From assembly GCA_002715545.1 (NCBI GenBank), contig PAZI01000008.1:3675-15577 (forward strand): DNA of 11,903 bases. The letters are read 5' to 3'. This document shows, piece after piece, positions 1 to 11,036 of this stretch (position 1 is the first letter of the stretch; every line of letters begins with the position of its first letter). This DNA is from Methanobacteriota archaeon. Its GTDB lineage: Archaea > Thermoplasmatota > Poseidoniia > Poseidoniales > SP79. The notes below the pieces were generated by a model that worked only from the letters and a program-made list of their open reading frames with translations, ran no database searches and was not told where the DNA came from. Both the position numbers and the translations under genes were made by a program.

Positions 1-3000
1 AACATCACTCTGCAAGCCGATATTCTTATCGACGGTTGTGAGCTTGAGATTCAAGGTGGTTTAATCACAGTTGATTCTCCATCGGCAGCTTCACCACGGT
101 CTATTTCCATAACAAATGGTGGTGAATTGAACTTCACTGGAATGCTTCTGGGAGCATTGAGCAACCAGAAACCATTTGATTTCGATCTGACCAGTGGCAC
201 ATTGTCGATGAAGGATTCCACATTCCGTAACGCGTTCATGGACAGTTCCTGCAATTGTATCATTGGGGTAAATGAAGATTCAACCCTGAACCTTGATGCC
301 TCAGCGATCGAGGGCTCTTCTTCGGCTGCTGCTGATGAAGCGACAGTTCTGGTCAGTTACGGGTCGATGACTTCGATTGGCGAATCAGTGATTAGGAATA
401 GTGGTAAGTTGGGTATTGGTCTCATGCTTATCGGGACAACCGATGAATCGGTCTCTCTCGATTCAATCAGTGTGAGCAATGCTTCCACAGCCATCAAGCT
501 CAAGGATGCAGCCCCTAGGGTTGACAACTACGAAATCATTGACAGCAACACCGGTGTTGACGTCGAAGGTTCGATGTCCTTGCCTCATCTCTACAGGAGC
601 CTCTCTTTGTGTAATTGTGCGAATGACATCAGCAATAGAGGCTGGGCTCAGTATTCGGTTGACGTCACAAGCCTTGCCAAGGGCAGCAATTACGCCCAGG
701 TTGGAATGAGAATAGAAGTTGATGCGGGCTCCACGGGTCTCTACGGATACACGTGGGGTGGAGATTTCCTTGCCTTCGATGCGATGTTCTACAAGGCCTC
801 CTGGGGTGGTGGGCAGGATTATGTCGTTCGACCAAATAATCAGAATGTGGATGGTGGGTCAACCGGATCATCCTCTTGGACTGGCAGTAATCAGGGTTCT
901 ACTGGCTCGGCGAATCATGGTACTCTATCAGGTACGAGTGAAACCTTCCACAAGCGAAATGCTTTCTACCGCTGCGGTAACGGGTATTCTTACTCTTACC
1001 CATATTATCCCTACTCAAGCAGTTATGTCGAGCCGGGTTCGCAGACTTACACCTACAACTACTACCTCCCGAAGTACAGGAACTCGACAACCAGTGATCA
1101 GCGACAGTTCGGATATCAGTTTGAGTTAATCGATGGTGAGACTCTACCGCAGTATTACTACAACCGTGTCCAATGGTGGGACTCTCAGTGGGGCCGCTTT
1201 GGCCAGTACGGCCAGTACCACAACACTTTCGACAATGGAAGGGGATGGGACTCCAATGGTGTGAATTGGAACTATTGGTATTACCAGAACTACTACAGTA
1301 GTGGTGCCTGCCGAGCATATGCGAACTATGGACAGATGCCGAATGGATACAAGTACATCATGACTGCACCTGTAGCTAAGACCGCAGGCGTCAGTGAGTT
1401 CTCTTTCAATCTTGACTTCTTCCATAGAGGATCACAGAATGTGGAAGATGGAATGCAATTCTTGGTTCGTGTCGGAGACACTGAATCGGAACTCAGGAAC
1501 AGTGAGTGGATCGAACAGATGGGTAGAGCCACGTTCAATGATGGTTCAATCTCAAGGACCGATGTTGGTATCAACTACCGTGGTGACACCGCAACTGCTG
1601 ATATCAACCGATTAGTCATCGATGCACCCAGTGACGCAGGTGTGCTCATCTCCGGAAGTTCTCAAGGTCTCATTGATGACATCACGGTCAATGGCGGAAC
1701 TGATGGTCTGCGTATTGGGCTTGGAGGTTCAGGCGACGTTGAGCTGACGAATATCAATTTCAACAACCAGACCAACGCTGGAATCAACATTGGTAAGAAT
1801 ATGGATATGACCTTCGAGGGTCTTATCGAGAATGCCAACCCTGGTGCCGCTATCAAGGTCGGAAGTTCCGATACTGGTGGCTGGGAATGGAGCGATCTAG
1901 AGTTCAACAACAACGCCATTGGATTCTCTGTGGCAGGTACTGGAGAATATACACTCAACAACCCTACGTTCACCGGCAACACCGAGGACATCAAGGTCAC
2001 AGGTGCAGCAACGGTATCTGTGATTGATGGTACAATCGATCTAGGTAAGGTCACTGTGACTTCCGGGCTCGGTGAGGTTGAGCGTGGCTGGAGTGTCACG
2101 TTCGTTACCAAGTACGGTGGTATCGCACGATCCGGTGCTGAAGTGTACATGCTTCGTGACGGTGGAGGAATCGCTGGTTCTTCGGTATCGGACGCGGATG
2201 GTAAGGCCTTCGGATTCACTAAGGTCACCGAGCGTGTTGACATTAACGGCCTAGCGAACGTGCCTTTGGGCTCCTACGAAGTGGTTGCCCTGATCGCCGA
2301 GGATGATTCAGCATCAACACGTCTCTGGCGCTATGTTCGCGAGACCCCTGTCCTGACATCCACGGGTGCCCAGGAAATTGATCTGTCAATGACACTGTAC
2401 ATCGATGCCATCGTGTGCTCAAGTGGTTGGGACCAGAACTGTGATGTCGGTTGGTCTGGCCAAGTTGGCAACCAGTATGGTTACGGCAGTGACGGCTGGG
2501 GTAACTCCGCTTCTCCAGTTGCCACTTCTTCTGGTGCCGCAGGAGACTGGGATAACACTGCGATGATGTTCACAACAGATTACACATATTTCGGTTGGAG
2601 CACGGATGTCTCAATGGACAATTCAATTGTGTTCCTCAAGCCTCGTATGGGTGCCTATCAGAATGTGTTCCGAATCTACAAGGATGGTTACAACCAGTAT
2701 GACTGGAACATGGAGAAAACCACGATGATCGTGCTCTCTCCTTCAACAATGCCAGAAGACAGTCAGATGGGTGTGAGTTTCGGACAGCCTTGGAACCTCC
2801 TCAACCCGAACATCAAGGATTCGACCATTCTTGGTCTGACCAGCATCTCTCAGGGACTGACTTACAACAGAAACGAACCCGAACAGTTCGAGCTTTGGAA
2901 TAATACGTTCATCGCTCCAGAGTATGATGGTTACCGTAACTTCGAGTATCAGTATGGAATCAATGCTGGAGAGCCAGATAACTACAATGTTGTCAACAAT

Positions 3001-6000
3001 ACGATGATAGGATATGATTACCCGATTCGTCTCTCGCGTACTCAGAATTATTACTACCAGAACACGGCTGACTATGGGCCCGATGGTGCTCAAATCGTCG
3101 GTAACACGTTGATTGATGCCGTGTACTATGGTATCTGGATGCAATCTCCAAGTTACATCGATGATGTGGTTATTCGCGATAACAATATCCATGGTTCCTC
3201 AGGTCTGCAGTATGGTATTCATGCTGATGATTCTCAGATCAAGAATCTGATGATACATGGAAATAACGTCTCAAATGCAGACTCTCCTATCTATATCAAT
3301 CGAGTAGATGGAGTTGATGTAGCTGGTAACACAATCTATGGTGACGGTTCGAGTACCTCTCAATATGGTATCTACATGAGGAACACTCACGGTAATGTCA
3401 ATGGTAACTCATTGACCGATGCAGATGGCGGTATCTATGTCGCTTCTATCCGTGGCGGCCTTGACTTCACCATGAATGACAACTTCGTCACACAGAGTGG
3501 TCGTCCGGTTGACGGTGGATATGGTATCTGGGTGCAGAACTGTGGTGGAGGAACTGTCTGGCTAGCAGACAACGAGGTTCACGTCTATCATCAGGCCTTC
3601 GAGACCAACAACTGTAACGTTGTGGACAACGGTTCGACCTATGATTCAGGCTACTCGGGTTGGTCTGACCGTCCAGGTTACGAAATCTCTGGTAACAATC
3701 TGGAGGTAACACTCAACACGGTCACTATCTCAGGTTTCGTAGATGGTATCATCATGAATGGTGGTGAATTGTCGATGAGCATGAACACGGTCATCAACGC
3801 CAGCAGAAATGCAGTTTCTGTTTCGGATTCAGATCTCACAGTCGGTCAGAATGACCCGATGCAGCATGAGGTATCGTTCGATGAGACTGCAGGAAGTTGG
3901 CCAGCAGATCTCTTGGTGACAACCGGCGACAGCATCAAGTTCGTCAACACTGGTACCAAGAACCTCACGATTGAGGAAGCTACCGGCCATCTATTCAGTT
4001 CGACAGATATCGATTATGAATGGCCACCAGTTGTTCAGACCTGTTCAGACATTGTTCTACAGATGTATGATTCGTATGGCGATGGTAACGATGGTGTTGG
4101 ACCAAACAGCGGTGGTATCTTTGAGTCTGGGACCAATACCCCTGTCAAGAGATCAGATGGGAATGATTTCGTCATCCCCGGTTATGATTGGGGCTATCAG
4201 GTCGCCTTCCCATCGAGTGGCACCCTCAGTCTAAGCTCTGCAACGGATTATGACATCCGCTTCGAGTCAGATTACTGGCCAGAAGAGACAAGTTGGGCGA
4301 TTGTCAATACGAGCAGCAACAGCAAGCTCGCTGAAGGCGACGTCGAGGATCTTCCGGCCACGTTCAGCATCTCTTGTGGTGAAGCATCTGCAGTGAACGA
4401 TGCAACGGTTCCCGTGACCTCTGAGGTCTATCAGCCCTACAATGTCAATGTGATTGACCGTGCTGACAACAGTGTTCTCTACACGGGCACAATCAAGCTT
4501 GTCAATACGCTTGGTGGAGCCACTCTGAAGTCTGGATGCACTGGTTGCGCCCCGAACGGCGCAGACTACGATGGAGTCGCATTGGACATTTCCGGTTCTT
4601 CGACCTATGTGAATGCCGAATACATGACACTTGAAGGAGAATATGGAATCAAGGTGGATGGTGTACAGGATTATCGGTTCAACCAGATCCAGAGCATGGC
4701 TAACAATACCTTCGTCGTCGACAATGGAGCGACAGGGTACTTGGAGAACGTCACGTATCGCAGCCCAATTGATGGAACCACGCCCTACTTAGACATGGGT
4801 TCGATGATCAATGCAGGTACGGATACAACGACTTGGGTCATCAATGGGTCTCTCGATACGAGCAAGCTCGTTGTCGACCCCACTGCTGTGATCTATGAGG
4901 GTAACAACCTCGGTCTCGATGTGACTTACATGGGCTCTCCGACCTTCAACGTCGAAGTTGTCCTACAATCTCACGACAGATACCAGGCGGATTATATCAG
5001 TCCTGGCTGGACCAAGTCAATCAATGTCAACACTGCCAATGATCAAGGCAACATGACGGATTGGTTCGGTGCAACCCCCTCTGAATGGGCGCGACCCGGC
5101 GTCATCTCTGGTGGGCCTGACATCTCAACCCGTATGCGCCAGGATCTCTATGTTGCTGATACTAACAGCACCCTCATGGCGACCTGGGACTTCAACAACC
5201 TCTATTTCGGTCTACGAGGTCATGATCTGGTGAACGATGGAGAGGACCTTGTCATCTACGTCGATTCAGACACGGGTGGAACTCGAAGCGGCCAAACGTC
5301 AGCTTCGGACAATCCCGAATCGCAGACCTATGGTGATGGATTATCACACAGTCTGCCAATCTCTGCGGATTATCGGATTGAGTTGAGCAATGATTTCACC
5401 TACAAGACGATCACAAGTTCGTACAGTGGTACTGGGTGGGTTCACTCTATCTGCACAGGTCTTGAAGAGCACCTCGGCCGAGCAACTTCGGAACCACTGA
5501 CTTCGGAATTCACCGAGATAGCCATTCCATGGAGCTGTATCGGCTTGAATGGAGCTGAAGACTCGATTCGCGTGTTCGCCTTCGTCAAGGATTCAAGCAA
5601 CGGTAATGTCATTGCAACACATCCCAACAACAACGCCGTGCCGACCGCTGGTAGCTCTGCATCGTCCACTGATTGGACAACGCCCAGCATGCTTCGATTC
5701 GATGCACAGAAGGAGTCGACTCTTTCAGTGGGCCAGATGAGAAATCACCTCCTCATCTTCCGTAGCTTCATCGGATCTAACACGCCGGTCGGAACTGATA
5801 CGTCATGGGACGTTACTGTGAAGGACATCATGCGTAACGGCATCCAGAATTGGGATTCATCCAATACCCAGATTGACATGAGCTCGAGTCAGATTATCCA
5901 GATTGATATCAAGCGCAACCAACCAATCATCTTGGAGATACCCGACCAGACTCTTCAGGAGGATCAAGCATCCGTCACTCTTGATTTGAACAACTATGGT

Positions 6001-8694
6001 GAAGATCTTCAGGATCCAAACGATCTGGAGTGGGAGATTAGCTTTGGTGTCAGTCAGTTTGGTCTCGGGGAAAAGTATCAACTTCTGGAGGATCCAGGGA
6101 CGATTGTCGATGGTCAGTTCACTATTGATCTGAGACCCGACATGTTCGGCACTCTTGAGTTGACTGTGACTGTAACAGACCCCGATGGTCTGACCAAGTC
6201 ACGTCCAATGAATGTCGTGGTCTCCAACGTCAACGACGCACCAATCGTCTGTGAGAGGAACGAACTTGGAACAGGTACGACATTCCTTGAGCAGTGCCAG
6301 AAATCGAACGTCAATCTGGACACCGATGATGGCGATGGCAACCAGATCGAGGAAGGATTCATCACTCACTCGTTGAGACTCGATCCCGAAGCTAACAAGT
6401 TCGAGGACATCACGAATGCTCAAGGTCAGCCAGTCAGGGTCTACAAATCCTGGGTCTTCGATCAGGAGAACGAGCAGGATCCAAATATCGCTCCTAACCC
6501 AGAAGCAGCAGATGGAATACCTCCTCAGGTACATGAGTGGAATGTATCTCTTGAGGATGGTTGTGAGGTCTTCTCCATCTCGATGGCAGGCGATGAACTC
6601 ATCCTATGGGAAGAGAACTATCAGATCGGTGGATACTGTGATATCTATCTGGATTTGACTGATAATGCACAGATTAATCCAGACGCAATCACGCACACCG
6701 TGCCATTCCTCGTCCGACCTGAGAACAATCAGCCTGGTATCTACAACCCATCTGACACAGAGGGTCCAGGTGCGAATTCGCTGGTAACGCAGGGTGGTAA
6801 ATCCCTCAACGAAGTCATCGGTGAGTGCGTCGACACAGAGAACCGAGTCAATTGCCCGGTCATCTGGGAGTGGACCTTCGATGAAGATGATTACGATGCG
6901 GACAACACGGTGATCGACCTGAGGAATGTGGTCGAAGACGTGGATGCGTATATCGATGATCCGAACAATGCTAACCAGTGGATTCATGACAAGAATTCCA
7001 CATTGACCTGGGAGGTCGATTCGAGCGATGGATGTCGCTATCAGGACTACTTCCACGTGGTTGATGCGGAGACACCAACTCAGGAAGACCTGATTACCAG
7101 TGGTAAGATGAAGATCATCCCGGTCCCTGATGCGAATACCGAAGGCGAAGAAGTCGATCCGCTCTATGATCAAGGTGTTCACCAGACCAAGCCCAAGGAC
7201 CAATCGGTCTCTGTGGATTACTGTCTGGTGACATTTACTGTCTCAGACGCAGCGTTTGAAGACCGTCCATCGTTCTACGATCTCCACAGTGGGGATTATG
7301 AGCAAAAGAGCGCAACTGTCGATGTTCGCATCAAGATCCGCAACACCGAGGAAGCCGTTCCTGACTACACCTTCAAGCCAAAGTCACTCAGGTACAGTGG
7401 TGACCCTGCAGTTATCGAGGGTACGCAGGTACCATTCTACATCAGTGTCATCAACATTGACTCAACAAGCAATGGGGACTACTTCTACTCCCACCAGATT
7501 GCACTGAAGCTGCACAAGGTCGACAAAGACACAGACATCAATGGTACCGTGTGTGACACGATCACATCTGACCTGCCACGTCCTGGTGACGCCAATGGAG
7601 TTGAACTCGGATGTCACTGGACCATCAATAATGAAATAGTTCAGAAGTTCGAGTTGGTGATTCAAGTGTCAGCCTGTAGGATTATGAAGGAATATTCTCC
7701 CACCAGCCCTGCTGAATTTGGAAGAGCTGGTGTCAAGACGATTGATGACGATGGAAGCTGTCCAGCGCTTACCGGTACACAGGCTAACAGCCCTGCTGTC
7801 CGTAAGTTGCTCGACAAGACCTGTGTCGATGTGCAATGTACTTCCTATGACAACAACAACGTCTCAAACCTCGACTCATCGCAGGATTACCTGGGTAACC
7901 AGATGCCAAAGATCGTAACCGCTGCTCAGAACGTTGCAGCAGTTCCTTCTTTTGCACCGACCCTTGCGACCGTCGCTCTTGTAGGTGCCATGGTAGCCAT
8001 CCTGATAGGTCGTGCTGAGCGCCGGTCTGAGGAAGAAGAAGCAGAGGGGCGTGCCGAAGCAGCAGTTCCTATCCGCAGGATTCTTGAGGATGACGAAGAA
8101 GCAGTCAGCCCTGTCATCGCTACCATCTTGATGGTGGCGATTACAGTGGTACTTGCAGGAGTGCTCTACATCTGGGCGGGTTCACTCGCTGGAGCAGATG
8201 CCAAGGTCGAGCCGACCATCAGTTGGACGACCACGACGTGCAAGACCAAAACGTGCGAGGTAGGTGGCGAACTTCTTGACGCTGAGGATATTCACTTCAA
8301 GATCCTCATCGAAGACTCTCCGGATGACTATCGAACCGGGGCGATACGTGTCGACGTCGAGACTAGCAGTGCGACTTACCAGTTCGACCTGTTCAATTCG
8401 TCTGTCTATGGTGTCAGTCCACAAGAGCAGGCAGTCCCCACCCTCGTGGTGTTCAATGATGAGACAACGGCTGCTACCGATGACCCGAATGGTAACATCT
8501 TCACAAGTTTCGGTGTTGGGGACCAGATCTTCGTGCGCTTCCGAGTGCCACCTGCCGAGGATACGGGTACGCTGGGTGAAGTGATCGGGGCCTCAACGGT
8601 CAAGATCGTCTACACTCCAACGTCTCGCATCATCAAGCAGTTCGACCTGCTTGTTGACCCGACTGGTGACACTGGAACCATCACTCCGGTCTGA
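1..8694 (+). CDS. Giant beta-helix surface protein fused to a C-terminal type IV pilin (5' partial)
   Basis: The frame is open from base 1 to the TGA at 8692-8694, so at least 2,897 residues (over 300 kDa) are visible. The start and any signal peptide lie upstream; the TTG at 127 is only an internal codon. Modules in order: beta-helix (1-640); beta-sandwich-like and Tyr/Trp-rich insert (640-1600); beta-helix (1600-2065); Ig/carboxypeptidase-regulatory-like (2065-2400); main beta-helix with an Asn ladder (2830-3840); Cys-bounded SYGDG module (4042-4380); short beta-helix with a GCTGC motif (4480-4900); CBM9/DOMON-like (5125-5600); cadherin/Ig-like ending NVNDAP (5923-6250); Cys-containing acidic region (6250-7920); VPSFAP plus a transmembrane helix (7942-8010); type IV pilin (8080-8691). 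Many N-x-S/T sequons (e.g. 2899, 2995) suit archaeal N-glycosylation. The family is known for adhesion or carbohydrate contact, but no substrate can be read from this sequence. The role as surface adhesin or pilus component is inferred. Confidence 0.9.
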   Translation, partial: NITLQADILIDGCELEIQGGLITVDSPSAASPRSISITNGGELNFTGMLLGALSNQKPFDFDLTSGTLSMKDSTFRNAFMDSSCNCIIGVNEDSTLNLDASAIEGSSSAAADEATVLVSYGSMTSIGESVIRNSGKLGIGLMLIGTTDESVSLDSISVSNASTAIKLKDAAPRVDNYEIIDSNTGVDVEGSMSLPHLYRSLSLCNCANDISNRGWAQYSVDVTSLAKGSNYAQVGMRIEVDAGSTGLYGYTWGGDFLAFDAMFYKASWGGGQDYVVRPNNQNVDGGSTGSSSWTGSNQGSTGSANHGTLSGTSETFHKRNAFYRCGNGYSYSYPYYPYSSSYVEPGSQTYTYNYYLPKYRNSTTSDQRQFGYQFELIDGETLPQYYYNRVQWWDSQWGRFGQYGQYHNTFDNGRGWDSNGVNWNYWYYQNYYSSGACRAYANYGQMPNGYKYIMTAPVAKTAGVSEFSFNLDFFHRGSQNVEDGMQFLVRVGDTESELRNSEWIEQMGRATFNDGSISRTDVGINYRGDTATADINRLVIDAPSDAGVLISGSSQGLIDDITVNGGTDGLRIGLGGSGDVELTNINFNNQTNAGINIGKNMDMTFEGLIENANPGAAIKVGSSDTGGWEWSDLEFNNNAIGFSVAGTGEYTLNNPTFTGNTEDIKVTGAATVSVIDGTIDLGKVTVTSGLGEVERGWSVTFVTKYGGIARSGAEVYMLRDGGGIAGSSVSDADGKAFGFTKVTERVDINGLANVPLGSYEVVALIAEDDSASTRLWRYVRETPVLTSTGAQEIDLSMTLYIDAIVCSSGWDQNCDVGWSGQVGNQYGYGSDGWGNSASPVATSSGAAGDWDNTAMMFTTDYTYFGWSTDVSMDNSIVFLKPRMGAYQNVFRIYKDGYNQYDWNMEKTTMIVLSPSTMPEDSQMGVSFGQPWNLLNPNIKDSTILGLTSISQGLTYNRNEPEQFELWNNTFIAPEYDGYRNFEYQYGINAGEPDNYNVVNNTMIGYDYPIRLSRTQNYYYQNTADYGPDGAQIVGNTLIDAVYYGIWMQSPSYIDDVVIRDNNIHGSSGLQYGIHADDSQIKNLMIHGNNVSNADSPIYINRVDGVDVAGNTIYGDGSSTSQYGIYMRNTHGNVNGNSLTDADGGIYVASIRGGLDFTMNDNFVTQSGRPVDGGYGIWVQNCGGGTVWLADNEVHVYHQAFETNNCNVVDNGSTYDSGYSGWSDRPGYEISGNNLEVTLNTVTISGFVDGIIMNGGELSMSMNTVINASRNAVSVSDSDLTVGQNDPMQHEVSFDETAGSWPADLLVTTGDSIKFVNTGTKNLTIEEATGHLFSSTDIDYEWPPVVQTCSDIVLQMYDSYGDGNDGVGPNSGGIFESGTNTPVKRSDGNDFVIPGYDWGYQVAFPSSGTLSLSSATDYDIRFESDYWPEETSWAIVNTSSNSKLAEGDVEDLPATFSISCGEASAVNDATVPVTSEVYQPYNVNVIDRADNSVLYTGTIKLVNTLGGATLKSGCTGCAPNGADYDGVALDISGSSTYVNAEYMTLEGEYGIKVDGVQDYRFNQIQSMANNTFVVDNGATGYLENVTYRSPIDGTTPYLDMGSMINAGTDTTTWVINGSLDTSKLVVDPTAVIYEGNNLGLDVTYMGSPTFNVEVVLQSHDRYQADYISPGWTKSINVNTANDQGNMTDWFGATPSEWARPGVISGGPDISTRMRQDLYVADTNSTLMATWDFNNLYFGLRGHDLVNDGEDLVIYVDSDTGGTRSGQTSASDNPESQTYGDGLSHSLPISADYRIELSNDFTYKTITSSYSGTGWVHSICTGLEEHLGRATSEPLTSEFTEIAIPWSCIGLNGAEDSIRVFAFVKDSSNGNVIATHPNNNAVPTAGSSASSTDWTTPSMLRFDAQKESTLSVGQMRNHLLIFRSFIGSNTPVGTDTSWDVTVKDIMRNGIQNWDSSNTQIDMSSSQIIQIDIKRNQPIILEIPDQTLQEDQASVTLDLNNYGEDLQDPNDLEWEISFGVSQFGLGEKYQLLEDPGTIVDGQFTIDLRPDMFGTLELTVTVTDPDGLTKSRPMNVVVSNVNDAPIVCERNELGTGTTFLEQCQKSNVNLDTDDGDGNQIEEGFITHSLRLDPEANKFEDITNAQGQPVRVYKSWVFDQENEQDPNIAPNPEAADGIPPQVHEWNVSLEDGCEVFSISMAGDELILWEENYQIGGYCDIYLDLTDNAQINPDAITHTVPFLVRPENNQPGIYNPSDTEGPGANSLVTQGGKSLNEVIGECVDTENRVNCPVIWEWTFDEDDYDADNTVIDLRNVVEDVDAYIDDPNNANQWIHDKNSTLTWEVDSSDGCRYQDYFHVVDAETPTQEDLITSGKMKIIPVPDANTEGEEVDPLYDQGVHQTKPKDQSVSVDYCLVTFTVSDAAFEDRPSFYDLHSGDYEQKSATVDVRIKIRNTEEAVPDYTFKPKSLRYSGDPAVIEGTQVPFYISVINIDSTSNGDYFYSHQIALKLHKVDKDTDINGTVCDTITSDLPRPGDANGVELGCHWTINNEIVQKFELVIQVSACRIMKEYSPTSPAEFGRAGVKTIDDDGSCPALTGTQANSPAVRKLLDKTCVDVQCTSYDNNNVSNLDSSQDYLGNQMPKIVTAAQNVAAVPSFAPTLATVALVGAMVAILIGRAERRSEEEEAEGRAEAAVPIRRILEDDEEAVSPVIATILMVAITVVLAGVLYIWAGSLAGADAKVEPTISWTTTTCKTKTCEVGGELLDAEDIHFKILIEDSPDDYRTGAIRVDVETSSATYQFDLFNSSVYGVSPQEQAVPTLVVFNDETTAATDDPNGNIFTSFGVGDQIFVRFRVPPAEDTGTLGEVIGASTVKIVYTPTSRIIKQFDLLVDPTGDTGTITPV
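964..1356 (+). other. Tyr/Trp-rich insert in the giant protein
   Basis: This 131-residue stretch holds 28 Tyr, 6 Trp and 5 Phe, about 30% aromatic, with runs such as PYYPY, YNYY, QYYYN and WNYWYYQNYY. It follows a Gly/Ser/Thr/Asn-rich linker (about 840-945). It is flanked by regular beta-strand sequence and sits between two beta-helix blocks, so it looks like a domain inserted into the helix. Dense surface aromatics are known in carbohydrate-binding surfaces and in adhesive or fibrous proteins; which applies here cannot be told. A smaller Trp/Tyr/Gly cluster with similar character lies at about 2416-2610. I do not recognise a named family. Confidence 0.75.
2830..3840 (+). other. Parallel beta-helix (NosD/PbH1-type) domain in the giant protein
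   Basis: About ten consecutive rungs of roughly 20-27 residues are readable. Each has an Asn-turn such as NNTM, GNTLI, DNNIHG, GNNVSN, GNTIYG, GNSLTD or DNFVTQ, followed by a strand such as YGIWMQ, YGIHADD, PIYIN, YGIYMRN, GGIYVAS or YGIWVQN. The stacked Asn and alternating hydrophobic pattern is the signature of right-handed parallel beta-helix repeats (NosD, pectate-lyase-like). No pectinase catalytic Asp cluster was recognised, so it is more likely structural or adhesive than enzymatic. It shares this architecture with blocks at 1-640, 1600-2065 and 4480-4900. Confidence 0.85.
4042..4380 (+). other. Cys-bounded SYGDG module in the giant protein
   Basis: The segment opens with Cys (4042) in CSDIVLQMYDSYGDG and closes with Cys (4375) in SISCGE, enclosing about 110 residues. 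The motif DSYGDG resembles the SYGDGWNG motif found in many secreted proteins of marine bacteria. The two end cysteines could form a disulfide bracketing the module. The sequences on either side read as continuous with one another, so it looks inserted into a larger beta-rich unit. Function unknown; the resemblance is by motif only. Confidence 0.5.
5125..5600 (+). other. CBM9/DOMON-like beta-sandwich in the giant protein
   Basis: The order of elements is typical of CBM9-like or DOMON-like modules. First is LMATWDFNNLYFGLRGHD (a strand carrying W and Y), then DLVIYVDSDTGG (an acidic strand and turn), then SADYRIELSND, and finally EIAIPWSCIGL close to the end. These modules bind sugars or heme in other proteins; the binding residues cannot be assigned here. 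The call rests on the characteristic FNNLYF...DLVIYVD...YRIEL...IPWS progression, not on a search. Confidence 0.55.
5923..6250 (+). other. Cadherin/Ig-like domain in the giant protein
   Basis: It starts with ILEIPDQTLQEDQ, a usual opening of these bacterial and archaeal Ig-like modules. It continues with DPNDLEWEI and FGTLELTVTVTDPDGL and closes with VVVSNVNDAPIV. The DPDG and VNDAP motifs are hallmarks of tandem cadherin-like or Ig-like repeats of large adhesins, which often bind calcium at the junctions. Only one clear repeat is seen, although the following region (6250-7920) contains strands that may be degenerate copies. Confidence 0.7.
7942..8103 (+). other. Membrane anchor and cytoplasmic linker leading to the prepilin site
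   Basis: VPSFAP (7942-7959) is followed by about 17 hydrophobic residues (7960-8010) and then GRAERR (8008-8025). This is a classic outside-to-inside C-terminal anchor with positive charges on the cytoplasmic side. A Glu-rich 32-residue linker (8008-8103) with RRILEDDEEA follows and ends at the start of the pilin helix. VPSFAP fits the VPxxxP pattern of an archaeal C-terminal sorting signal class, so archaeosortase processing is possible, but the signal is not at the protein's C-terminus as it should be. Confidence 0.7.
8080..8694 (+). other. Archaeal type IV pilin module at the C-terminus
   Basis: ILEDDEEA (8080-8103) followed by VSPVIATILMVAITV (8104-8148) is near-identical in style to haloarchaeal and euryarchaeal pilin N-termini (Pilin_N, formerly DUF1628). 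Archaeal prepilin peptidase would be expected to cut after EEA (between 8103 and 8104), giving a mature pilin of 196 residues: a hydrophobic helix to about 8193, then a beta-rich head with CKTKTC. There is no in-frame ATG, GTG or TTG between 7993 and 8127 from which an ordinary short-leader pilin could start, and no stop separates it from the anchor. It is therefore translated as part of the giant protein unless a sequence error is present. Confidence 0.85.
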
Positions 8695-8714
8695 AGCCGG
8701 ACAGGAGGTCTACC

Positions 8715-8749
8715 GGGGGGGGGCATCCCCCCTCCCTCTCTCCTCTCTC
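8715..8749 (+). terminator. G9/C6 hairpin with C/T tract; possible terminator
   Basis: Nine G (8715-8723), CAT, then six C (8727-8732) can form a 6-bp all-GC stem. The strand remains pyrimidine-only from 8727 to 8749. It lies about 20 bases after the stop of the giant gene, which suits transcription termination or processing. Archaeal terminators usually have a T-run rather than a C/T tract, so the call is tentative. Confidence 0.35.
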
Positions 8750-8798: not shown

Positions 8799-9455
8799 AT
8801 GCCAAGGTGTGTAGCGTTTGATTGCGATGGCGTGCTGACGCAGAACGTCTCGTCTTGGAAGACCCTCCATCAGCACTTTGGGACCACGTCTGGTGATCTG
8901 TATCAGGCGTATCTGGACGGTCAATTGACCGACGAAGAGTTCGTGCGAGAAGACATCATACGATGGAAGGCATCTAGGCCCAGAATCCATCGGGATGAGG
9001 TGGTTCGAGCATTTGCAGGCTCACGATTAATGCCTGGGATGAGAGAACTGGTAGCCGAACTCCAATCGAATGATATCGATGTCATCATCGTCTCAGCGGG
9101 AGTCGATGTGTATGTTGCTATGATTGCTCAGATGCTCAAAGTAGATGATTGGATTGCCAATGGTCTTGGATTTGATGATGATGGATGGATGCTTGATGAT
9201 GGCGTCATCCGTGTTCGGGCCAATAACAAATCCAGCGCTATAGACCAATTCTGTGAAATCAGAGGCTATCCTCCTGAAGACGTCATCTGCGTGGGTGATT
9301 CCAGCGTCGATCTCTCGATGTCTGCGAGTGGTGCCTCTTTTGTGGGCTTCAACCCCACCCGCGATATCGATATCGAATCATTTCTGTCGCTTGGTGTTCG
9401 AGTCTTTGAGAAGGAGCAAATCCTCGATCTCAAGAATCACTTGCTCTCGTCTTGA
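8799..9455 (+). CDS. HAD-superfamily phosphatase, SerB-like
   Basis: This is a complete protein of 218 residues with all four HAD motifs. Motif I is FDCDGVLT with nucleophile D8 and acid/base D10; motif II is IIVSAG with S99; motif III is NNKSSA with K144; motif IV is GDSSVD (166-171) with D167 and D171 for Mg2+. The segment between motifs I and II (about 15-75) is helical in character and fits a C1 cap, as in phosphoserine phosphatases (HAD-IB). The family hydrolyses phosphomonoesters in the cytoplasm. Serine biosynthesis is possible, but the substrate cannot be fixed from sequence. The ATG at 8799 is chosen because it places motif I at residue 8, as usual. Upstream is GGTGGAG with unusually short spacing (2-4 bases). 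The gene follows the giant gene by 104 bases without a visible promoter and ends against the convergent polymerase gene. Confidence 0.88.
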   Translation: MPRCVAFDCDGVLTQNVSSWKTLHQHFGTTSGDLYQAYLDGQLTDEEFVREDIIRWKASRPRIHRDEVVRAFAGSRLMPGMRELVAELQSNDIDVIIVSAGVDVYVAMIAQMLKVDDWIANGLGFDDDGWMLDDGVIRVRANNKSSAIDQFCEIRGYPPEDVICVGDSSVDLSMSASGASFVGFNPTRDIDIESFLSLGVRVFEKEQILDLKNHLLSS

Positions 9456-9458
9456 TCA
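9453..9458. other. Back-to-back convergent stop codons forming TGATCA
   Basis: The HAD gene ends with TGA at 9453-9455 (+) and the polymerase gene ends with TGA on the minus strand at 9458-9456. Together they make the palindrome TGATCA with zero intergenic bases. Any transcription terminator for either gene must lie inside the opposite coding sequence. Confidence 0.9.
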
Positions 9459-11036
9459 TGCGAATGGGATGCTGGCAGAAGCATGGGTCTTGAGATTGAT
9501 AACAGTCAGGATACATGGCTTAGGCTGAAATCCCAACATCCTCTGATACGCTGTCTGGTTCTGCCATGTTGATGAGCAGACCAGCGTCGTTCCCTTGTGA
9601 TCCTCACAGTGGTGTCCATGAACATGACCTGTGACGAAGATATCCGGTCGAGTGCCAATGATGAGGTCATCTTCTGGTTCGGGTGAGAGTGGCGTCTTAC
9701 TACCCCACGTCGGAGCAAGGTGGCGCCGCCGCATCATTTCTCTCATCGCCTCTACCGGGCAACCGTAATCGACATTGCGTAGAGTCCCTACGAAGTCGTC
9801 GATGGATTTTCCATGGTACGATAGCAATCTTACACCATGTAGGGAGAAATCACATGGATTACCAACGAAAGTCGTGCTGTTGAAATCGTTCTGGATGTCT
9901 GGTTCTAGTGCTGGTTGTGGCTCTTGTGGACGAACAGCATCATGGTTTCCCGGAAGGAGGAGTATCTCGACCCAATCTGGAAAATCATCTAGAAGACCTG
10001 CTAGATGACTATACTGGTTGAACAGGTCCGGAATCGACAATTCATTCTCTTGCCCAGGATAGATGCCTATGCCATCCACCACATCACCTGATAGGATCAG
10101 GTACTTGATCGTCCGAGCGAGAGGGTCGGTGTGGAACCACTGACGCATCTTCACCCACTGATCATCCAGGAATGTCTTCGAGCCGACGTGTAGATCGGAG
10201 ATGAAGGCAACTGAAACACCTTGTTCAGCATGTGCTCGCTCGTGAACTTCAAGACGTGGAAAGTAAGGTTCCTCAGCGAAGAACAGATCATTGTTGCGAC
10301 TGAAGGACCCCTTTAGGCCGATCACGTCATCAGGCATCAGACCGACGTGGACGATGTCGTTCACATCCTCTTCAGAACGTGTGATGAGGCATTCTACTGA
10401 CGCAGTCTCATCCTCGAGGGTGAAAAGCAGGTTCCCAGCTTTTGTGAATCTCGGATTAGACACCAGCCCAACAATTGTTGCAGAGGTATCGTATCCGGTA
10501 TATTTGGCTCGCTGATCGAGGAGTTGGAGGACAGTTATCGGTCGAGAAAGAGGAGTGGTCTTGAGAATCTCCTTGCGAAGTTTCTCAATACGATTCCTGA
10601 ACAGGCTCGTGATGTCATCGATTTTCCCTTCGGTGCGAGAGCGGCCAGTGATATCGTAGTGGACGGTCAGATCCATATCAATATCCGTGGCGATGTCGGG
10701 GAACATCTCGATGCGATAATCACCTAATGAGGGCGTGGTATGGTCATTCGTACTTGGGAGGATGGGGGCGATGACCCTCCCTGGAGCAGGGCGAATTGGA
10801 TCCGTACTGGAATGGGCTTTCCACAGAGCTTCAATCGCTTCACCTGTGAGAACCAATGGCTCAGAGGATGCAAGAGCCGGAAGAAGCCAATCAGTCGTTC
10901 CAATTCGCTCAAGTGCATCCCTTCCAGGGGCTAGCAGAAGGTGCCCATCACCCGCCAACTCGCGCGACAGTGCCCCAAATCCACTCATGGTCCGGCGGAA
11001 TCTTGGTCGAGAGCACATGAACACTTTGTTCATCAT
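9456..11036 (-). CDS. polB: DNA polymerase D small subunit (DP1), proofreading exonuclease
   Basis: This is the small subunit of the archaeal D-family replicative polymerase (526 residues, within the usual range), which pairs with DP2 and provides 3'-5' exonuclease proofreading. After a divergent N-terminus (1-165) comes an OB fold (about 185-260, e.g. ATIVGLV and LFTLEDE). A calcineurin-like phosphoesterase domain follows, with all metal-ligand motifs present: SDLH (D281, H283), GDVVDG (D318), GNHD (N364, H365), YHG (H408) and GHVHG (H471, H473). Proofreading therefore looks intact. The start at 11036 is preferred because ATGATGA overlaps the upp stop, which suggests translational coupling. 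The second ATG at 11033 and Met17 at 10988 are alternatives, the last giving a leader-free MSGFGALSREL start. DP1 marks the organism as archaeal and, with the pilin, euryarchaeal. Genes for DP2 are not in the window. Confidence 0.95.
   Translation of the reverse strand: MMNKVFMCSRPRFRRTMSGFGALSRELAGDGHLLLAPGRDALERIGTTDWLLPALASSEPLVLTGEAIEALWKAHSSTDPIRPAPGRVIAPILPSTNDHTTPSLGDYRIEMFPDIATDIDMDLTVHYDITGRSRTEGKIDDITSLFRNRIEKLRKEILKTTPLSRPITVLQLLDQRAKYTGYDTSATIVGLVSNPRFTKAGNLLFTLEDETASVECLITRSEEDVNDIVHVGLMPDDVIGLKGSFSRNNDLFFAEEPYFPRLEVHERAHAEQGVSVAFISDLHVGSKTFLDDQWVKMRQWFHTDPLARTIKYLILSGDVVDGIGIYPGQENELSIPDLFNQYSHLAGLLDDFPDWVEILLLPGNHDAVRPQEPQPALEPDIQNDFNSTTFVGNPCDFSLHGVRLLSYHGKSIDDFVGTLRNVDYGCPVEAMREMMRRRHLAPTWGSKTPLSPEPEDDLIIGTRPDIFVTGHVHGHHCEDHKGTTLVCSSTWQNQTAYQRMLGFQPKPCILTVINLKTHASASIPFA

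Follow-up and report, generated by a model that had tools for sequence, protein, structure and literature searches.

The locus described here raises the question of why the gene for a giant surface protein, whose C-terminus looks finished, runs on without interruption into a type IV pilin, and of what might become of the product. It lies in a stretch of 11,903 nucleotides from a Poseidoniales archaeon (assembly GCA_002715545.1, contig PAZI01000008.1), which we refer to, at its full length, as the window. We find that the fusion is no single-genome oddity: a large archaeal group has conserved this gene, at a single syntenic locus. We tentatively read it as a surface polyprotein of Poseidoniales that would be cut by a prepilin peptidase inside and by an archaeosortase outside, a proposal to which we give slightly less than an even chance. 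The elements of the fused gene are as follows.

1..8694, plus strand: giant surface protein and type IV pilin in a single frame; the 5' end, with a presumed Sec signal, lies outside the window.
7942..7959 (residues 2648-2653), plus strand: VPSFAP, the motif that opens a tripartite C-terminal sorting-type signal, judged from homologues and from the same motif at true C-termini elsewhere.
7954..8007, plus strand: first membrane helix, predicted to run from out to in (hydropathy; helix 5-36 of the AlphaFold2 (AF2) model of the C-terminal construct).
8008..8025 (residues 2670-2675), plus strand: basic cluster GRAERR in the sequence, which closes the tripartite signal.
8026..8103, plus strand: predicted cytoplasmic linker ending in L-E-D-D-E-E-A, candidate recognition site of a prepilin peptidase (65 distinct leaders).
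8104..8691, plus strand: type IV pilin (VSPVIATILMV...), 196 amino acids, with an N-terminal helix and a beta-rich head (Pilin_N and NCBIfam matches, AF2, Foldseek).

The frame is open from the first base of the window to a TGA at 8692-8694 and specifies 2897 amino acids of a larger protein. An earlier interpretation made without database searches (the sequence-only reading) had placed the giant protein and the pilin in this one frame, with VPSFAP, a transmembrane helix and GRAERR ahead of the pilin and a 196-residue archaeal pilin after EEA; the sequence, the fused homologues and the Pilin_N match described below bear out each of these points. Its linker of 32 residues holds if GRAERR is counted; the linker that follows GRAERR is 26 residues long, ends in LEDDEEA and is followed by the pilin VSPVIATILMVAITVVLAGVLYIWAG, with the candidate prepilin site EEA/V between residues 2701 and 2702 (nucleotides 8103/8104). 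The only Kyte-Doolittle peaks (19 residues) of at least 1.6 in the 2897 residues are the two helices, but such a peak is uninformative by itself, as 161 of 200 shuffled sequences also reach 1.6 somewhere; the weight of the argument therefore rests on conservation.

A protein search with the C-terminal 308 residues as query, confined to long proteins, gave 249 homologues, of which 120 were listed and examined. SFAP, the helix, basic residues, the acidic linker and AVSPVIAT are present in all 120; VPSFAP is exact in 113, the remaining seven reading V[AST]SFAP, and R or RR follows the helix in the homologues displayed. A scan of genome contigs with the window sequence alone found no relative, and a scan with an alignment as query then found 466 loci. 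In the best 80 of these, which were kept, the junction is open without exception, with SFAP in 79 and SFTP in one (L036); their labels are Poseidonia, Poseidoniaceae, Poseidoniales, or just Euryarchaeota/Thermoplasmatota. By a hand count of the table, 146 of 292 genomes of the class have a strong match (best E ≤1.3e-46; weaker ones were listed in part), and the listed strong matches all begin with the VPSFAP end of the query (position 1); the one exception, in G183, begins at the first base of a contig. We take the class genomes without a strong match, half of the total, to be in part other lineages and in part incomplete. A stop inside the match had singled out 14 genomes as possible exceptions; on reading all 14, the stop is the pilin's own end and all are fused. 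The fusion could also be an assembly error or a missed stop, but the identical junction recurs in many independent genomes and homologues, and this explanation is practically refuted.

The gene also occupies a constant position, next to two genes that lie in the window as follows.

8799..9455, plus strand: HAD-family phosphatase-like gene, the conserved downstream neighbour (PF12710, 5.4e-16).
9456..11036, minus strand: DNA polymerase D small subunit-like gene, neighbour (PF04042, 9.2e-13).

The HAD gene is found directly downstream on the same strand in all 73 loci that have SFAP and at least 1.2 kb of downstream sequence, and the polymerase D small subunit-like gene is found beyond it, on the opposite strand, in 57 of the 69 loci whose downstream sequence reaches 3.2 kb or more. 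The comparison of orthologs that the sequence-only reading had proposed thus upholds its observation: listed proteins and kept loci are all fused, separate genes for giant and pilin are found neither among the listed strong matches in the 292 genomes nor among the 80 loci read, and homologues and synteny together exclude an artefact. Just past the pilin stop, at 8712-8740 of the window, a G run is followed by a C run, a possible terminator hairpin.

The identity of the C-terminal part is supported by both sequence and structure comparisons. It matches Pilin_N (PF07790; 3.4e-10, 41.1 bits against a curated cut-off of 25.2) and the NCBIfam model of the archaellin/pilin N-terminal domain (TIGR02537; 5.4e-11). 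The AF2 model of the C-terminal 250 residues of the window (21 rows; mean predicted local distance difference test score 75, predicted template modelling score 0.58) consists of a helix at 5-36, a low-confidence linker, a helix at 57-84 and a beta-rich head. With Foldseek, the PDB matches at E ≤0.001 number four, to archaellins and to an archaeal filament (best 1.8e-5); ranked lower are FlaF and FlaG, mixed with unrelated hits (Kir channels, immunoglobulins), and the solved chains closest by sequence are the archaeal pilins 8fj5, 8gi2 and 9myg. Where the source names the homologues, they are called ‘type IV pilin’, ‘FlaG/FlaF family flagellin (archaellin)’ or ‘hypothetical protein’. In all four genomes compared, the pilin helix shares 26 of 28 residues, but only 63-66 of 84 bases, with that of a stand-alone pilin encoded by the same genome, which argues that selection, not recent copying, keeps the helix. 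One property of archaeal type IV pilins, a short cytoplasmic leader at the N-terminus, is lacking here, as the giant protein and a membrane helix precede the leader.

In a tree of 61 rows, the fused label needs five changes, at least four of them by well-supported branches, and thus a single origin of the fused heads is not established. Three pilins with stand-alone leaders (P0157, P0195 and P0207; longest contigs 720-1370 bases) nest among the fused heads, and P0223 and the six TadC-side pilins L093-L098 sit on long branches at an open fork, on the side of the fused heads; these mixed-leader positions may be due to chimeric contigs, real recombinants or long-branch effects. The first three, together with P0224, which is outside the tree, are short pilins with the leader MxNxxRNEEAV (longest contigs 623-1370 bases for the four).

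Judging from the leaders, the candidate prepilin site is under constraint. All 65 distinct leaders from the protein search have A(-1), D(-4), D or E(-3) and M, I, L or F(-7), while -2, much of the other linker positions and the length of the linker vary; the proteins in this set were not chosen by AVSPVIATI, though word matches to the query brought them in and SPVIAT served to locate them. Including loci, and leaving out rows that are too short or interrupted by a stop or X ahead of the site, the 129 distinct sequences have A(-1) in 129, D(-4) in 123 and D/E(-3) in 127, the A(-1) count on loci being biased because the search patterns were AVSPVIATI or VA[IV]TVVL[SA]GV and some loci were found by the former. 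A prepilin peptidase homologue (PF06847) is present in all of six genomes chosen for carrying the fusion, over the curated cut-off in four, and the same six all have the pilus platform domain (PF00482, T2SSF). In the L068 genome, a platform-domain pair lies ∼8 kb from a stand-alone pilin (G002:C1:747006-748074 and 755460), possibly a separate pilus locus.

These observations bear on whether the protein is cut at all. It might instead remain whole, with the giant anchored by a hairpin of the two helices and the pilin head serving as a FlaF/FlaG-like surface domain that grips the envelope. The gene does encode one polypeptide, and the head in the AF2 model is similar, with weak scores, not only to archaellins but also to FlaF and FlaG. 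However, an uncut hairpin has no obvious need of the strict A(-1)/V(+1) and the acidic -3/-4, which thus favour cutting, and the near identity of the pilin helix to those of stand-alone pilins also speaks against it; we consider an uncut hairpin unlikely. Pilus assembly follows removal of the sequence preceding the pilin helix (PMC6491452, in excerpt), so the uncut adhesin-pilin hybrid, offered as an option by the sequence-only reading, could hardly be built into a pilus; the uncut form would be a membrane hairpin. A prepilin peptidase probably cuts at A/V.

Such a cut depends on the face of the membrane on which the linker lies. Among 98 full-length homologues (>4300 amino acids, Met start), an N-terminal hydrophobic segment is found in 92, and none has a hydrophobic peak (≥2.0, 19 residues) between its first 80 and last 260 residues; at this cut, 31 of the 98 show just one of the two C-terminal helices. 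A signal and terminal helices with no peaks between them suggest that some four thousand residues are exported. K and R are absent from the ten residues ahead of VPSFAP, and GRAERR follows the first helix, a distribution of charge that, by the well-established positive-inside rule, places the linker inside. The predicted topology is therefore giant outside, linker inside and pilin head outside, and the helices and charges support the sequence-only reading in this topology and in putting the prepilin site on the cytoplasmic face.

The VPSFAP-helix-basic segment is a C-terminal sorting-type signal in its own right, resembling archaeosortase signals. In a pattern search of 10 genomes it ends, besides its place in the fusion, a second protein at a true stop in seven (...SPGLVPSFAPSIIIILLVGVALGFLQRRTRV, then the stop, and relatives); this protein is of Ig/CARDB type, with 663 residues, in the L068 genome, and a relative of it is found in three more (G111, G227 and G268). 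Variants included, VPSFAP-type tails stand at a real stop in 10 genomes beyond the 10 of that search. Seven genomes (L200-L206), 1.0-1.3 Mb in size and lacking a strong match to the fusion, encode a large protein whose tail consists of [VI]PSF[AS]L, a helix and R[RQ][KR]EEE before a real stop, with no pilin attached, in frames of 1766-1821 amino acids in six and of 640 at a contig edge in one. These proteins look like the state before the pilin was added, although the match spans the tail only and not the ectodomains. The 873 kb of the L068 genome that were searched, partly chosen for known loci, hold 13 C-terminal helix-basic tails, including PGFG, PGL and VPSFAP. Because VPSFAP-helix-basic ends other proteins at real stops, the giant may owe its anchorage to a lipid attached by an archaeosortase and not to that helix.

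Enzymes of this kind are widespread: TIGR04178 (exosortase/archaeosortase) is matched over the cut-off in 115 of 118 class genomes. All three stronger-copy proteins exceed archaeosortase A's own cut-off (97, 96.6 and 98.3 bits against 75), and the three weaker-copy proteins match only the general model TIGR04178 over its cut-off. By hand counts, which leave out G151, at least two copies are found in 49 of 56 genomes with the fusion, in 21 of the 27 whose pilin matches are all weaker ones and in one of 35 without any pilin match. Six of these 35, each with one archaeosortase copy, gave eight pattern hits, none of them a VPSFA tail. Five two-copy genomes searched alike have a VPSFA tail in four cases and, in G009, an IPSFAL variant outside the pattern; as G009, G030 and G002 were already known positives, they serve as a control and not as an independent test. 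A second archaeosortase-family protein (L177:602-1816, L179:766-2133 and others), which passes the cut-off for TIGR04178 but for none of the specific NCBIfam archaeosortase models, co-occurs with VPSFA-type tails. The signals on which archaeosortase A (ArtA) acts, from the outer side, may be C-terminal or lie elsewhere (PMC9263693, in excerpt). On balance, we lean towards an archaeosortase cutting the giant at VPSFAP, with a little over even confidence.

Two simpler schemes, each with a single cut, can be weighed on this evidence. The model of the sequence-only reading has a prepilin peptidase free the pilin, with no archaeosortase and with the giant held by the first helix. Conservation of the leader fits this equally, and no named sorting model matches VPSFAP; against it, VPSFAP-helix-basic at real stops elsewhere exceeds the needs of a plain anchor, and archaeosortase-family genes are in nearly all of the genomes counted above (115 of 118), and we judge it fairly unlikely. 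The other scheme has the archaeosortase cut alone, transferring the giant to lipid and leaving the uncut pilin as a small two-helix membrane protein. The tripartite signal is present, genomes of the class encode the enzymes, and the Haloferax volcanii protein HVO_0405 offers a precedent, but the conserved prepilin site is left unexplained, and we regard this scheme as very unlikely.

A free pilin might also arise through internal initiation of translation in the linker. In the window, in-frame ATG, GTG and TTG are absent from the Met of the first helix to a TTG at 8128, in agreement with the sequence-only reading, which had noted no start codon between 7993 and 8127. Of 92 distinct linkers, 31 have ATG as the codon at -7, and gene callers begin some short entries there: P0141, P0143, P0147 and P0154 are called proteins that start at the internal Met(-7), P0147 on a 13-kb contig. 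However, the other codons at -7 are ATC (20), CTC (11), CTT (10), TTC (9), ATT (4), CTA (3), TTG (2), CTG (1) and ATA (1); it is a hydrophobic residue that is kept at this position and not a start codon. Furthermore, 28 of the 92 linkers, that of the window included, have no ATG, GTG or TTG at -16 to -3, and Shine-Dalgarno-like bases lie within 17 nucleotides in just seven of the 31 linkers with ATG(-7). As a conserved mechanism, internal initiation is thus unsupported, and we consider it highly improbable as the source of free pilin; lineages with ATG(-7) could still initiate there.

Two cuts are, in our view, the simplest account of all these constraints. In the polyprotein we propose, a Sec-type signal would start export of the giant ectodomain, the VPSFAP-helix-RR segment would stop transfer and be followed by a short cytoplasmic linker, and the pilin helix would re-insert and send the pilin head outside. 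A prepilin peptidase (PibD/FlaK type) would cut A/V in the linker at the cytoplasmic face, freeing a pilin with a normal N-terminus that is fit to join a filament with the stand-alone pilins. The same cut would leave the giant ending in the tripartite signal, so that the internal signal becomes near-terminal and the two cuts are coupled. An archaeosortase would then cut VPSFAP outside and hand the giant to lipid, and one translation product would give one anchored giant and one pilin. The topology, both cuts, their order, the lipid anchor and the entry of the pilin into a filament are all inferred. The sequence-only reading had suggested a membrane-anchored adhesin and a pilin: the fusion, the predicted topology and the site stand, and anchoring by the first helix may give way to a lipid anchor made by an archaeosortase.

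Several observations weigh against the polyprotein we propose. Characterised prepilin sites include DAVS, RAVS and KGQV, with a charged residue at -2 in most (PMC4371748, in excerpt), but -2 is uncharged in most fused leaders (many have M, A or T), though it is E in the window. The called proteins P0141, P0143, P0147 and P0154 could be separate pilin genes, a possibility that contig ends or frame errors explain equally. With regard to the second cut, NCBIfam gave no hit up to E 10 for a 75-residue VPSFAP segment, for which short models may be lost in the filters, and no NCBIfam sorting model in the whole fusion protein or in two proteins ending in a VPSFAP-type tail. The motif is VPSFAP, not PGF, and since one tail-bearing genome has PGF-type tails, ArtA may serve those alone. 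The pairing of VPSFAP with the second archaeosortase rests on a co-occurrence that tracks lineage and is at most suggestive. PF09721 was matched in none of the six fusion-carrying genomes, and the absence of an archaeosortase that this implied was overturned by the matches to TIGR04178.

Marine Group II (Poseidoniales) are described as the most abundant archaea in the plankton of ocean surface waters, have no cultured representatives and are thought to attach to particles via surface structures (PMC6461757, in excerpt). A conserved, single-locus gene for giant and pilin is a concrete candidate for how Poseidoniales build their surface. It leads to the predictions that a prepilin peptidase can process a site that follows a membrane helix and that a signal of archaeosortase type can lie within the chain throughout a group. 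It is possible, if somewhat doubtful, that this is a polyprotein of 4-5 thousand amino acids processed by two unrelated membrane proteases on opposite faces, perhaps including an undescribed VPSFAP-specific archaeosortase, with giant and pilin made in equal amounts and the two cuts coupled.

The sequence-only reading knew of no archaeal pilin made in this way. The open-licence PMC literature searched (titles, starts of abstracts and passages, with subscription papers outside its scope) likewise contains no description of the fusion. As far as searched, therefore, the parts are of known kinds, and their union as one conserved gene is undescribed. With archaeal type IV pilins (PF07790; PilA family) the C-terminal part shares Pilin_N, the SPVIATILMV helix, the beta-rich head and the A/VS site; unlike PilA-family pilins, which have a short N-terminal leader, it has a giant exported protein and a membrane helix ahead of the leader. 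The class III signal of the sugar-binding proteins of Sulfolobus lies near the N-terminus. These proteins are non-pilins with class III signals (PMC4371748, in excerpt), and the fusion resembles them in carrying a prepilin-type site on something other than a simple pilin. The giant resembles PGF-CTERM/archaeosortase A proteins, such as the Haloferax S-layer glycoprotein, in its motif, helix and basic tail, in being a large exported protein and in the presence of ArtA in the genomes of the group; unlike them, it has the motif VPSFAP, which has no NCBIfam match and is internal instead of terminal. In HVO_0405, two genes that were once separate have been joined, and ArtA cuts centrally, between the two parts (PMC7157517, in excerpt); as in that protein, formerly separate parts are fused here with an archaeosortase-type site between. 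HVO_0405, though, is called strain-specific and is a PGF-type substrate of ArtA, with no pilin mentioned in the excerpt of PMC7157517, whereas the present fusion spans a large group, carries VPSFAP and has a prepilin-type site after it.

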